DNA from: a virus
Length of the DNA: 26,860 nt
Direction: 5' to 3' (one strand)
IMG/VR virus record: IMGVR_UViG_3300012964_000051
Coordinates: 1 to 26,860 of that record
The notes beneath the pieces are model-generated. The model made no database searches. It had not been told where the DNA came from and saw only the letters and a program-made list of their open reading frames with translations. A program made the position numbers and the translations under genes. Every line of letters starts with the position of its first letter. The stretch's first letter is position 1. Positions 912-20,588 of the stretch are shown here, piece after piece.

Positions 912-930
912 GATAGCTCCTTACAAAGAA

Positions 931-10180: not shown

Positions 10181-10450
10181 CTAGCGTAGTTGTTCGTGAA
10201 AGAAATCAAGCAGCGCGATGAACCATTCCTTCTTCGCATGCGCGCCATTGCCTGCATGGAAGTGCTCGCCCTCTGGCGTGGTGCCGATGAAGTTGCCGGT
10301 CACGGGATTGTAGTGTACGAACGCCCCGCCTCCGCGGATGGTGACGTACCCGCTGCTCACGAGATTCGCCATATCTACTTCAAGGGTCTGCTCTTTACAG
10401 AGCTTGAGTACTTCTTCCAGTGTCTTCGGGCGGTGCGTATGTCTGTTCAT
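10181..10450 (-). CDS. Hypothetical phage protein, 89 aa
   Basis: ATG 10450 with AAGGAG spaced 7-8 bases. It starts MNRHTHRPKTLEEVLKLCKE and ends KKEWFIALLDFFHEQLR. A glycine-rich middle (YVTIRGGGAFVHYNPVTGNF) suggests beta hairpins. No family recognised. It ends TAG within TAGGAG, the SD of the DUF2130 gene, which starts 9 bases later in the same frame; readthrough would give a fusion, but this stop/SD overlap is a normal pattern in this genome. Confidence 0.7.
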   Translation of the reverse strand: MNRHTHRPKTLEEVLKLCKEQTLEVDMANLVSSGYVTIRGGGAFVHYNPVTGNFIGTTPEGEHFHAGNGAHAKKEWFIALLDFFHEQLR

Positions 10451-10465
10451 TTCGTAGCTCCTTAG

Positions 10466-10744
10466 TTAATCAATACATGCTTCAAGACGATTTAACTGCG
10501 TGCGCGCCATGTCAACAGCTCCTGGATTCATGCGCACCAAGTACCTATCTATAGCGGTTCTAGTTAGATGCTGGTATCTGCGATATTCTGCCTGCTGCAT
10601 TGTGGGGAACATCGTAGCGCCGAACTGCTTTCTACTTGAATCTGGAAATACGACATACATTCTCTTCTCGCATACCGCCAGTTCAACATTTCGCAGCATC
10701 TTCACGCGGCGGCACTTATTAACTAGAAATACTCTGTCACACAT
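10466..10744 (-). CDS. Hypothetical phage protein, 92 aa
   Basis: ATG 10744 has a perfect AAGGAGG SD at seven bases. The product starts MCDRVFLVNKCRRVKMLRNV and is basic, with YVVFPDSSRKQFGATMF then a helical C-terminal half rich in Arg, Tyr and Met. No family recognised. It is the first gene after the terminator at about 10853-10881 and its SD sits right beside one arm of a long inverted repeat, so its translation may be affected by that structure. Confidence 0.7.
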   Translation of the reverse strand: MCDRVFLVNKCRRVKMLRNVELAVCEKRMYVVFPDSSRKQFGATMFPTMQQAEYRRYQHLTRTAIDRYLVRMNPGAVDMARTQLNRLEACID

Positions 10745-10758
10745 AATGATGCCTCCTT

Positions 10759-10864
10759 GTGGTTTGTTGAGAACCGCACTGGGCGAATGCTGTTCCGTCT
10801 GTACGGATAGGCAGAGGTCATAGACAATGCACTAGGCGGCGCAGTACGGCTCTCAACAAACCAC
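10759..10864. repeat. Long inverted repeat, 14 bp plus 3, around a 74-base loop
   Basis: TGGTTTGTTGAGA with a preceding G at 10759-10772 is matched exactly in inverse at 10851-10864; after one mismatch CCG/CGG extends it (10774-10776 and 10847-10849). One arm overlaps the tail of the rho-independent terminator, the other lies just before the SD of the 92-aa gene. Confidence 0.8.
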
Positions 10865-12254: not shown

Positions 12255-12668
12255 CTACCGCTTCACAACGGAGACGACAGGTACGTTCATCGCGGCGCAT
12301 CCGGGAACTTCCTTCTTCGCCTCCCAGATTTCGCGCACGGCGCTCTCGCTCACGCGACGCTGCATGAGAGCGAACGCGCCCTTCTTTGCATTCTTGATGA
12401 TGTAGGAATATAGCTTGTCCCAGTCTTGCACCTGAACTACGGACTTGTTCTCCACGGTGGCGCGTGCAATCTTACCGGCGATCCCGGTTGCCTCGGACTT
12501 GGGCAGGTTGTTGATGAGGTGTTCGCGGAGGGCTGCTTCCTTCTCAGCCAGCGCGTCCACCTGTTTGTTGAGCGCGTAGCGTTCTTCGCGGATTGAATAC
12601 AGCATGTCCGCGCAAGTTGCGAGGCTCTTCGGCGGGGTGAATTTCTTTGTTTCTTTGCGCGTTGCCAT
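12255..12668 (-). CDS. Phage protein of unknown function with coiled-coil N-terminus, 137 aa
   Basis: ATG 12668 uses AAGGAG with about eight bases of spacing. It starts MATRKETKKFTPPKSLATCA, followed by a charged helix (SIREERYALNKQVDALAEKE) and a segment VENKSVVQVQDWDKLYSYII. The charged helix followed by K-x-x-V-x-V-x-D-W resembles nuclease-inhibitor-like or recombination-accessory proteins that sit by SSB genes, but I cannot name a family. First gene of the SSB operon, directly after the promoter at 12723-12757. Confidence 0.7.
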   Translation of the reverse strand: MATRKETKKFTPPKSLATCADMLYSIREERYALNKQVDALAEKEAALREHLINNLPKSEATGIAGKIARATVENKSVVQVQDWDKLYSYIIKNAKKGAFALMQRRVSESAVREIWEAKKEVPGCAAMNVPVVSVVKR

Positions 12669-12722
12669 TTCGGTAGCTCCTTATAGAAATTTAGAAGTCA
12701 GTAGTTAGGTACTACGGTTGTC

Positions 12723-15509: not shown

Positions 15510-17534
15510 CTAAAATTTCTTCTTCGCCGCAAGTGCGCGGCACTCTGCGTAGTGTACGCCCGCATCCTTCACCGACGCCTTCAACCACTGCTCGCGGTTG
15601 CGCACCGCGTATAGTCGGTAGCTCCGACCGTCGTGCGTGGGGATCGGTGCCTTGCTGTTCGCCGCCTTGCGGAACCCTGCGCGCTTGAGCTCCCGCGCCA
15701 GTGCGTTCGGGCTGGCACGCTTGTCGCCCAGCGGATCGTAGATCGCATGCAGCTCCTCCGCTGTGGCTAGGTCACCGCGCAGCTTCGCGCCCAGTACCGC
15801 ATCCGGCGTGTCCTTCAACCGCGCAACCCATGTGCCGAGCTCGCTCTTGCCGATGTGGGTCATTTCCTTCTTGGACTCGGTCACCAGTGCGGGCGCTTGC
15901 GGGTCGAAGTCGCCGAGGTCCAGGTTCAATAGATGATAGAACAGGGCGCTCTGCCCTTCCTTACCGCCTATCCACGCCAGCAGCTTGTCACGCAGTGCGA
16001 TAGGCAGATGGCCTGCGGTCACTTCGTGAATGAAGAAGCGGCGGTCACCGTCGTCGAGGTAGAATGCGTCAGGGTCGTTGGAGGTAAAGTAATAGTTGAT
16101 ACAGTCTGGGATTGTGTAGCTGCGAATATACTTTGGATCGATGCGCAGTGATTTCTGCGTGACCATCGTCTTGAACATATTGGACATCTTCCGGTTGTCG
16201 TGGCCGGTGATGTCGTCCGCGAGAACGAACTGCTTGTTCTCCGCCCACTCAAAGCGCGGTGACTGCAAGTCTGCGTCCTTCACCTCCGCCGCGTTCTCCC
16301 CGTACATGCGCATCAACGTATGGCCGCACAGTGTTTTCCCCGTTCCCTGCCCTACACCCCAGATCACCGCCGCCGACGCCATCTTCACTCCCGGATGCTG
16401 TATGGGGTATGCACACCAACGTTCGAACCACTGCTTGGAAGCGGGCTTGCTGCCGGTGAACAGATGGTCTAGCAGCGCAGTCCACAGGCTGACGTCGCCC
16501 TTGCTTGCGCACTCCACGCCCCAGCCGTTCCACATGTTGAGCTCGCCGCCTTCTGTGATGCGCTCTTTTCCCGGTGCGTAGGTGCTGCTCGCCACCTCTG
16601 CGCGGTGCTCCCACGCCAGCCACAGCTTCGCGGCGGACTTGCGCACCAGCTTCATCCCGCCTTCTTTGTCGAACGCAGGTACTTCTATCCATCGGTTGGA
16701 GTACGCGGCTGCGGTGAATATGTTCGGGGAGATGTAGCGCACCAAGTCATACGAGTAGATCGCGTCCAGTGCTTTGTTATACACAATCTCCTGATTGAAG
16801 GCGTGCAACTCCTTGCTCATTTCGTACTTGAATGCGGAGGCGAGTATGTTCCGGTGGAACGCCCTGTTCGCCTTGACTGGGTCCGTGTAGCGCAGCAGGT
16901 AGTCGTCGATACCTATCTTGCCCTTCCCCTTGCGCGGTATGCGGGCAATCATTACGCTGGCACCACGTTCTATCAGGCGCTTCGCCAGCGTGGCCTCGGC
17001 CATGATAATGTCGGGGTTTGTTACCGCATCGCTGTCAAAGCATATGTATATAAGTCGATCCTTTAAACTGATCTCGTCGAACACTGGTAACAGCGCAGCC
17101 TCTGCGCGCTTGGACATAAAGCACCACACGCCGCCGAGGCCCATCGTTGGTCCCACGATCCGTGTGGCGATGGCTGCCTTCTTTTCTCCCTCGGTGATGA
17201 TCAGCGGCTGCGCGCTCTTGAATACTTCCTGCCAATTGCAATACGGAGCCATATAGACTTCATTGACTGAGGCTGGCGGTTGTGCGTAGCGCAGAGGCTT
17301 CTTACCGCTGAGCGCAGAGAATCCTGTTGCTGTGTTCTCTACGTAGCGTACGCGGTAGAACTTGGTCTTCTTGCCCGCGCTGTTGAAATATGGAATTGTA
17401 TAGCCCGCGAACGCCGGTTTAAGACCGTGGTCCTTGGTGCTTAGTTGCAGCGTCTTTGCATCTTCTTCAGTTAGCCCGCTGCGTGCTAGGTCTTCTAGCA
17501 TTGCCGCGCGAACTTGTGTTGGTGTCATTGACAT
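15510..17534 (-). CDS. Primase-helicase (DUF3854 TOPRIM plus D5/DUF5906-type helicase), 674 aa
   Basis: The N-terminal third holds a DUF3854 TOPRIM-like domain: PLIITEGEKKAA (catalytic Glu about 115) and IYICFDSDA (D-x-D about 167-169), then GIDDYL. The C-terminal half is an SF3/D5-like ATPase: VIWGVGQGTGKTL (Walker A about 395-401), FVLADD (Walker B about 436-441) and YYFTSNDPDAF, matching DUF5906-type motors. Together they prime and unwind DNA at the replication fork. ATG 17534 follows a 145-base leader containing a strong predicted pseudoknot; no strong SD is seen (GGGAAA only), so translation may depend on leader structure. Ends in TAG. Confidence 0.9.
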   Translation of the reverse strand: MSMTPTQVRAAMLEDLARSGLTEEDAKTLQLSTKDHGLKPAFAGYTIPYFNSAGKKTKFYRVRYVENTATGFSALSGKKPLRYAQPPASVNEVYMAPYCNWQEVFKSAQPLIITEGEKKAAIATRIVGPTMGLGGVWCFMSKRAEAALLPVFDEISLKDRLIYICFDSDAVTNPDIIMAEATLAKRLIERGASVMIARIPRKGKGKIGIDDYLLRYTDPVKANRAFHRNILASAFKYEMSKELHAFNQEIVYNKALDAIYSYDLVRYISPNIFTAAAYSNRWIEVPAFDKEGGMKLVRKSAAKLWLAWEHRAEVASSTYAPGKERITEGGELNMWNGWGVECASKGDVSLWTALLDHLFTGSKPASKQWFERWCAYPIQHPGVKMASAAVIWGVGQGTGKTLCGHTLMRMYGENAAEVKDADLQSPRFEWAENKQFVLADDITGHDNRKMSNMFKTMVTQKSLRIDPKYIRSYTIPDCINYYFTSNDPDAFYLDDGDRRFFIHEVTAGHLPIALRDKLLAWIGGKEGQSALFYHLLNLDLGDFDPQAPALVTESKKEMTHIGKSELGTWVARLKDTPDAVLGAKLRGDLATAEELHAIYDPLGDKRASPNALARELKRAGFRKAANSKAPIPTHDGRSYRLYAVRNREQWLKASVKDAGVHYAECRALAAKKKF

Positions 17535-17576
17535 GTGGTTTCCCGTGCATTACTTATATAGTGTCTGGTTGCTTGC

Positions 17577-17679
17577 GTAGCTCCGGCGCAAGGTTGCAAC
17601 AGGTGGGCAGTGTGGCGCTATTGGCGGAGGAGCTACCCAGACCACACAGGCAGCGCCAAGCACCGCCCACCCATGCAAC
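17577..17679 (-). promoter_or_regulatory. Pseudoknotted leader of the primase operon
   Basis: In the - strand transcript a hairpin is formed by arms 17652-17679 and 17593-17619: 6+7+3+7 base pairs with small bulges. Its loop contains GTAGCTCC (17629-17636), which is the exact complement of GGAGCTAC (17577-17584) just 3' of the hairpin, giving an H-type pseudoknot. The hairpin starts about at the predicted transcription start. GGAGCTAC looks like the SD-plus-spacer used elsewhere in this genome, so the fold could affect ribosome access. Confidence 0.6.
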
Positions 17680-17686
17680 GCTATGC

Positions 17687-17719
17687 ATAATACAGTCCGA
17701 CTTAAACATTGCAAGTGAC
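17687..17719 (-). promoter_or_regulatory. Promoter of the primase operon with GTCACTTGC box
   Basis: On the - strand GTCACTTGC overlaps -35 TTGCAA; 16-base spacer; -10 TATTAT. Transcription would start near 17680, giving a ~145-base leader before the primase ATG. Confidence 0.65.
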
Positions 17720-19753: not shown

Positions 19754-19876
19754 ACAATTCAACCTTTCCTGTCAGTTCATGGACAGTGCGTTCATCGCCG
19801 GTCACGGTGGCTCGACTGCCTCCAAGAATCAGCAAGTCTGCTGTTTATGAACTGAACCCACAGACAATTCAACCTT
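19754..19876 (+). repeat. Direct repeat ACAATTCAACCTT in the terminase leader
   Basis: Two 13-base copies at 19754-19766 and 19864-19876, 110 bases apart. The second copy is inside the loop of the long stem-loop. The sequence between also repeats CTGTC...GACAG hairpins. Confidence 0.7.
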
Positions 19877-19939
19877 CTCCTCACGTTCTGTCTTCATAGA
19901 CAGCAGACTTGCTGATTCTCAGTGGCGATGATGCACTGT
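19783..19939 (+). promoter_or_regulatory. ~157-nt long stem-loop upstream of terminase
   Basis: Inner stem: 19825-19851 pairs with 19893-19919 over 27 positions, all Watson-Crick except one T-G. Outer stem: 19792-19799 with 19924-19931 (8 bp), then 19783-19789 with 19933-19939 (7 bp). Top helix: 19860-19864 with 19887-19891 (5 bp). No T-run follows, so it is not a simple terminator. It starts about 35 bases after the predicted late promoter and ends 58 bases before the TerS start. Confidence 0.8.
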
Positions 19940-19997
19940 GCGGAGCAGCAGAAATTCTGTTTGACAGAATCGATCACTCATCCGGAGAAGTGCAATC

Positions 19998-20588
19998 ATG
20001 GGCGCGTCAGCATCCACATCAAAGAACTCGCGACCTCGCAGCGGACTTACCCAGAAACAAGAAAGATTCGCATTGGAGTTTGTCAAGTGCGGTAATGCAA
20101 GCGAAGCATATCGTAAGTCGTATGAAGTCAGGTCCGCGACAACGCAAAAAACAGTGAACGAGCAAGCGTCCAAATTACTGGCGCACCCCGGCATCTCCAC
20201 AAGGATCGCAGAGCTCCGCTCAAAAATTGAGCAGAAGACAGAGATCACGATTCAAAGAATTGCTGAAGAACTTGCTCGCGTCGCCTTCGCAGATCAACGT
20301 AAAGTTATGCGATGGGGACAGCACGGTGTGACGCTCCACGACTCCGACGACCTGAGTGACGACGCAGCCGCTATCGTGTCCGAAGTATCTGAGACAACCA
20401 CGAAGGACGGGGGTAGTATCAAGCTGAAGTCCCACGACAAGGTTCGCGCGCTTGAGTTGCTTGGGAAACATATGGGCATGTTCAAGGAGAAGCTGGAAGT
20501 GACGACGCCAGGATCTGCGCAGCAAGAAGCGAAGATTCCGGCAGACGCTGTGGAGGCATCAAAAACGTACAAAGACCTCATGGGCTAA
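19998..20588 (+). CDS. terS: Terminase small subunit (Terminase_2 family), 196 aa
   Basis: Residues about 15-85 match Terminase_2: LTQKQERFALEFVKCGNASE, AYRKSYEV, TVNEQASKLLAHPGISTRIA. This N-terminal part is the DNA-binding helix-turn-helix and oligomerisation core; the C-terminal part (LKSHDKVRALELLGKHMGMF) is typical of the family. The protein recognises the packaging site and loads TerL. ATG 19998 has GGAGAAG seven bases before it. A long stem-loop lies upstream and may be the packaging site or a regulatory RNA. Next gene starts 3 bp after the stop. Confidence 0.93.
   Translation: MGASASTSKNSRPRSGLTQKQERFALEFVKCGNASEAYRKSYEVRSATTQKTVNEQASKLLAHPGISTRIAELRSKIEQKTEITIQRIAEELARVAFADQRKVMRWGQHGVTLHDSDDLSDDAAAIVSEVSETTTKDGGSIKLKSHDKVRALELLGKHMGMFKEKLEVTTPGSAQQEAKIPADAVEASKTYKDLMG

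Follow-up and report, generated by a model that had tools for sequence, protein, structure and literature searches.

What does a hairpin at the head of a replication operon control when its loop can pair with a segment just downstream? The initial annotation of this locus had described a 23-bp hairpin before the primase-helicase gene and regarded it as a translational control element or an RNA stability element of the operon leader. We analyzed the leader within the window (the whole 26,860-nt stretch of viral DNA) and compared it with the leaders of related phages. The features of the window on which the analysis is based are listed in Table 1.

Table 1. Leader features and loop-matched genes in the window.
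Feature	Position	Strand	Description
Sigma70-like promoter (weak)	17687..17714	-	TTGCAA 17714-17709, 16-nt spacer, TATTAT 17692-17687; 9/12 consensus
Hairpin 1 (hp1)	17591..17682	-	Long stem, 23 Watson-Crick + 3 G-T pairs
Antisense loop of hp1, GGUAGCUCCU	17628..17637	-	Perfect 10-nt complement of the SD region of gene 12255-12668
Hairpin 2 (hp2)	17572..17592	-	Small, directly after hp1; CUUGCG[CCGGAGCUA]CGCAAG
Primase-helicase-like gene	15510..17534	-	First gene after the leader; phrog_1156 DNA primase E=2e-32; PF12965 DUF3854, PF19263 DUF5906
Gam/Gp157-like protein gene	12255..12668	-	137 aa; main conserved target; orthologue in 24/30 related contigs
Target 1, SD region AGGAGCUACC of gene 12255-12668	12672..12681	-	10-nt complement of the hp1 loop
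Target 2, SD AGGAGCUAC of gene 10181-10450	10454..10462	-	9-nt complement of the hp1 loop; 89-aa product
Target 3, SD AGGAGCUA of gene 675-911	914..921	-	8-nt complement of the hp1 loop; 78-aa product

Two hairpins in the primase leader

The leader occupies the 187 nt on the minus strand between the primase-helicase-like gene and its upstream gene. The 23-bp hairpin with a loop complementary to a downstream segment was confirmed at 17682-17591 on this strand: GTAGCTCC lies in the loop of hp1 (17636-17629; loop sequence, GGGTAGCTCCTCC) and is complementary to GGAGCTAC at 17584-17577. As GGAGCTAC itself sits in a hairpin loop, that of hp2, which carries the Shine-Dalgarno (SD)-like sequence GGAGCUAC as an exact complement of GTAGCTCC, a loop-loop (kissing) contact between hp1 and hp2 is possible. 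The resemblance of GGAGCTAC to the SDs of other genes also held: the GTAGCTCC/GGAGCTAC motif occurs seven times on the two strands of the window against 0.75 copies expected (0/100 shuffles), and two of the seven copies are the SDs of the genes starting at 12668 and 10450. The primase start at 17534 is preceded only by a weak SD-like GGGA, in agreement with the earlier observation that this gene lacks a clear SD.

The hairpin had also been placed at the predicted transcription start. The TATTAT -10-like box indeed ends about 5 nt ahead of hp1, which would therefore begin at or close to +1; the promoter match is weak by itself, however, with 3 promoter-like sites found against 3.2 expected. The folding energy of the leader, evaluated on this single sequence, was moderately unusual (z = -2.05; 5/200 shuffles equally good). 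As neither the folding energy nor the promoter match is remarkable when taken alone, the case against chance rests on comparative evidence. No Rfam family was assigned to the window or its relatives, and the sub-threshold matches (mir-449 and others) were judged to be chance.

Other structured regions were observed in the window. The terminase (late) operon also opens with a giant hairpin (19769-19940, plus strand; RNA z = -6.7; 26-bp arms 19826-19851/19893-19918). Its loop sequence CTTCTCC complements GGAGAAG, which serves as SD for the gene of the terminase small subunit at 19998; this late-operon hairpin had no convincing match among the SDs of the window genes beyond that of its own terS. 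On the minus strand, an 18-bp hairpin at 10758-10863 (GTGGTTTGTTGAGAGCCG/CGGTTCTCAACAAACCAC) lies inside the operon directly 5' of the SD AAGGAGG of gene 10466-10744, and a structured region at 1640-1900 precedes gene 1259-1633. In the latter, CTCCTCTG complements CAGAGGAG, which lies about 140 nt downstream and forms the SD of gene 1259-1633, and a copy of GGGAGCTACCC lies 30 nt ahead of the start of this gene.

Leader loops and Shine-Dalgarno regions in related phages

A DNA similarity search of phage records with the leader found no relatives, and relatives were therefore compared via the primase, using about 80 IMG/VR contigs together with Stenotrophomonas phage AXL3, Pseudoxanthomonas phage PW916, and MW202621. 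In about 25 of these relatives, a long GC-rich hairpin precedes either the primase gene or whichever gene opens the primase operon. A -10-like (sigma70-like) box usually lies about 6 nt ahead of the hairpin; in L070 and L073, this box belongs to a near-consensus TTGACN/TATAAT promoter. The hairpins differ in sequence and are often multi-branched. Because an automatic promoter-plus-hairpin finder chose wrong hairpins at several loci, hairpin limits were set by hand, partly by eye.

In many relatives, part of the hairpin complements a segment that follows shortly after the hairpin, the latter segment often in the loop of a small hairpin, as in L001 (ATAGCTCC/GGAGCTAT), L005 (GTGGCTCC/GGAGCCAC), L008 (GTCGGCTCC/GGAGCCGAC), L063 and AXL3 (CTCCTCAGC/GCTGAGGAG), and L086 (UCCCUCAGC/GCUGAGGGG). 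Stems resembling hp2 and differing in sequence were found in L063, L082, L086, L087, and L008. Across 26 leaders, hp1 fitted the downstream segment of the same phage better than segments taken from the other phages (z = -3.9, permutation p = 0.0003), a comparison that used a shortened loop for the window and thus understates it. The pairing accordingly survived the test set by the initial annotation, namely conservation in related phages. L070 and L073 have in common a conserved AGCTCCTC loop and a kissing pair, GTGTGGTG/CACCACAC, that links hp1 to the sequence following it. The primase of AXL3 (L082) may start at a GTG codon 48 nt upstream of the annotated ATG (L082 921), and the SD of this candidate start, GAGGAG, lies inside hp2.

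In the window, the 10-nt match between the hp1 loop and the SD of the Gam/Gp157-like gene (GGUAGCUCCU/AGGAGCUACC), located 5 kb downstream of hp1, is longer than the match to hp2. This site ranked at the top of 36 filtered start regions and also at the top of 114 regions in a laxer list. The encoded protein shows weak similarity to PF05565 Sipho_Gp157 (E=0.0024, below gathering) and to the Mu Gam-like phrog_253 (E=0.012). PHROGs labels its family "minor head protein" (phrog_13900); the gene sits among replication genes, and given this neighborhood and the weak Gam/Gp157 similarity the label is probably wrong.

The start regions of the Gam-like gene were gathered in 23 phages whose hp1 boundaries had been fixed beforehand. 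Pairing of hp1 with the SD of the same phage averaged -15.8 kcal/mol, compared with -11.4 kcal/mol for permuted pairs (z = -8.05), and none of 100,000 permutations was as good. In the best-matched pairs, complementarity is perfect over 7-11 nt spanning the SD, with sequences that are wholly different between phages: UUCAGCUCCUC/GAGGAGCUGAA in L003, UCCUUCAGCAG/CUGCUGAAGGA in L079, CCUCAGCAAG/CUUGCUGAGG in L086, CUCCCUGAC/GUCAGGGAG in L010, and CCUCCAUUC/GAAUGGAGG in L068. In L005 and L006, the SDs of the orthologues (GGAGCCAC and GGAGCCAT) track the changed loop GTGGCTCC. Matched target SDs mostly lie 3-9 nt from start codons. A convincing match to the Gam-like SD was absent from several hairpin-bearing phages (L012, L029, L048, L071, and L073 among them); L029 nevertheless matches four other SDs. 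In the contig of L070, which shares its kissing pair with L073, no Gam gene was found.

Hairpins on the divergent strand, about 750 nt upstream of the primase, were observed in L019 and L043, and each can match the Gam-like SD over 11 nt (GTTCGCTCCTC and GCTCGCTCCTC). Pairing from the opposite strand would force action in trans, here by a late transcript. Both hairpins were located by searching for the SD match, and their promoters are unclear, so that they are no more than suggestive of such action.

Matches extend beyond the Gam-like gene. Just three SDs of the window, those of the genes starting at 12668, 10450, and 911, are matched over at least 8 nt; four are matched in L029 (CCUCAGGAG), three each in L079, L059, and L031, and two each in L003 and L068. 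In AXL3, for which a public annotation exists, the SD regions of 9 of the 65 genes match the loop by 8-13 nt, whereas shuffled loops matched a mean of 0.12 start regions and at most 2 (300 shuffles). All nine genes lie on the early (primase) strand, with no match among the 26 late-strand genes. Likewise, the five matched genes of MW202621 are all on the early strand, a count that leaves out a trivial match to a gene on the strand opposite hp1.

Over 29 leaders and 476 start regions, 59 start regions contained a complement of at least 8 nt to the loop of their own genome, compared with 19.6 after permutation (maximum 45 in 50,000). In contigs lacking an annotation, SDs guided the choice of ORF starts; this could favor G-rich sites, but all permuted pairings share the same starts. 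After removal of the Gam-like gene and the leader, 41 matches remained against 15.8 permuted (maximum 40 in 50,000; 27 leaders). Same-sense and reversed controls of this test showed no excess. A complement-not-reversed control was mildly enriched (23 vs 13.9, p = 0.017), which we attribute to the near-palindromic nature of CUCCUC/GAGGAG cores. Furthermore, in 20 leaders the antisense segments were more often unpaired in the predicted hp1 than the remaining positions (probability 0.71 vs 0.26, p = 2e-6). These sequence comparisons strongly support a pairing regulon, in which one loop would address the SDs of several early genes.

A proposed mechanism and its alternatives

We consider, at a probability of roughly 80%, that an antisense RNA derived from the leader controls a set of early genes by masking their SDs. 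In this mechanism, the 5' leader of the replication operon would yield a structured RNA in which hp1, at or near the transcription start, presents an anti-SD-type sequence in an exposed loop. The loop would pair over 7-13 nt with extended SDs common to several early genes, a set that almost always includes the Gam/Gp157-like gene, and would block ribosome binding, such that translation of the targets would drop as the leader RNA builds up. The SD-motif copy in hp2 would pair with the hp1 loop and either restrain it or serve as its first target. We infer that pairing represses rather than activates translation and that the leader RNA also gives rise to a short, free form; the loop may act in trans, in cis along the polycistronic mRNA, or in both ways. 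Repression would be expected by analogy with RNAIII, sX13, and C4. Constant repression would be odd if the leader always shared an mRNA with its targets, barring a release step. In AXL3, L063, L086, and L087, a U-rich stretch comes after a GC-rich stem, and we speculate that the two could terminate some transcripts, freeing an RNA of about 100 nt.

The earlier proposal of translational control is supported, but the primase does not appear to be the main target. Control of the primase in cis, through sequestration of an SD-like leader site by the loop, would draw on a pairing that is real (GGAGCUAC/GTAGCTCC); in L008, L007, L031, and L059, the first gene has an SD that is identical to, or overlaps with, the downstream partner, and in AXL3 the SD of the GTG start falls within hp2. 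In the window, however, the partner GGAGCTAC precedes the primase start by 43 nt, in L001, L005, L070, and L073 the hairpin is separated from the primase by an additional small gene, and the loop covaries more with distant SDs (z -8.0) than with its leader partner (-3.9), values that come from different tests. We therefore regard cis control of the primase as doubtful.

A stem at +1 might merely shield the mRNA from RNase E/RppH. Many leaders have a base-paired 5' end at or close to the presumed +1, and the terminase operon is also headed by a giant hairpin, both of which fit a 5'-end stabilizer. Such a stabilizer would work with any loop, whereas the loop observed covaries with distant SDs, and we regard protection of the 5' end as an unlikely explanation when taken alone. 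Stabilization of the mRNA may be an additional role of the stem, and the RNA stability envisaged in the initial annotation could be a side effect.

Processive antitermination of the put/EAR type, in which a long early operon opens with two kissing hairpins that modify RNA polymerase, was also considered. It is in keeping with two hairpins and a kissing contact at or near +1 of an operon of about 15 kb; it was dropped because terminator-like sites are few in the operon and the covariation with distant SDs is left unexplained. In addition, no conserved sequence or sub-structure of the kind that direct contact with the polymerase would demand was seen across the family, and we consider antitermination improbable. 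It is similarly hard to credit that an RNA-binding repressor in the style of RegA/CsrA reads the extended SD motif, with hp2 as an operator copy and the hp1 complementarity secondary: the same-sense motif does occur in the hp2 loop of several phages, but such a protein needs no antisense loop, which all well-supported leaders have, and no candidate repressor was identified. An element acting as DNA (a replication origin or protein-binding inverted repeats) would suit inverted repeats in an intergenic region adjoining replication genes, but is highly implausible, as the targets are SDs mostly close to start codons, the antisense segments fall in RNA loops, and G-T exceeds A-C at stem mismatches (15:7, p = 0.067), weakly favoring the transcribed strand.

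SD masking by the leader RNA thus remains our preferred reading, and we lean toward the broader view that these leaders represent a new class of phage riboregulator, in which an antisense hairpin and a private "extended SD" code occur across a broad siphovirus clade. The code would turn over completely while loop and SDs stay matched, constituting an RNA-only, phage-specific switch, possibly for early-to-late shut-off, tuned by the SD mimic within the leader. Most of the phage antisense RNAs described in the review consulted address a single target or only a few. In these leaders, by contrast, a single loop appears to serve an entire set of early genes, and because each phage has its own version of the code, the covariation is clear from sequence. 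If this is true, strictly RNA-based translational regulons exist in dsDNA phages, such RNAs can be tested for by comparing a structured leader with the SDs of its own genome, and the leaders offer a source of orthogonal anti-SD/SD pairs. AXL3, an isolate with a nine-gene example, makes the idea directly testable.

Comparison with known RNA regulators

Like HK022 put, the leader has two hairpins just downstream of an early promoter; putL is an RNA of about 70 nt with two stem-loops just downstream of PL (PMC9378689). However, put acts on RNA polymerase, and no evidence for such action was found in the leader; hairpin sequence is not conserved among the relatives. P22 sar and lambda OOP are phage RNAs that block translation of phage mRNAs through base pairing (PMC12197685). 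Whereas sar has a single target (ant) and OOP is encoded in cis against cII, the pairing proposed here is short and multi-target.

The closest system in mode is the C4 antisense RNA of P1/P7 (Rfam RF01695), a structured RNA that precedes its target within one operon and has loops that pair around the ribosome-binding site and block translation (PMC5320573, PMC12197685). Likewise, the leader stands ahead of an operon that contains a gene with a ribosome-binding site complementary to the hp1 loop. By the covariance model, the leader RNA is not a member of C4: RF01695 gave no gathering match in the window or 12 loci, none of 24 related records exceeded the cut-off, with their best sub-threshold matches lying away from the leaders, and at E<=5 no match fell on the leaders of the window, L003, L082, or L063. 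C4 controls antirepressor synthesis in the ant operon, whereas the matched genes here are the Gam/Gp157-like gene and other early genes; several of them are matched in one phage, and the seed differs in nearly every phage. In the open-licence literature surveyed, C4 is not described as addressing a set of SDs.

One loop complementary to several SDs is instead reminiscent of RNAIII of S. aureus and sX13 of Xanthomonas, in which C-rich hairpin loops pair with the G-rich SDs of several mRNAs (PMC2837412, PMC3771888), a likeness of mode and not of homology. RNAIII and sX13 are chromosomal and address host targets; here, the loop belongs to a phage mRNA leader, the matched genes are those of the phage, and loop and SDs covary.
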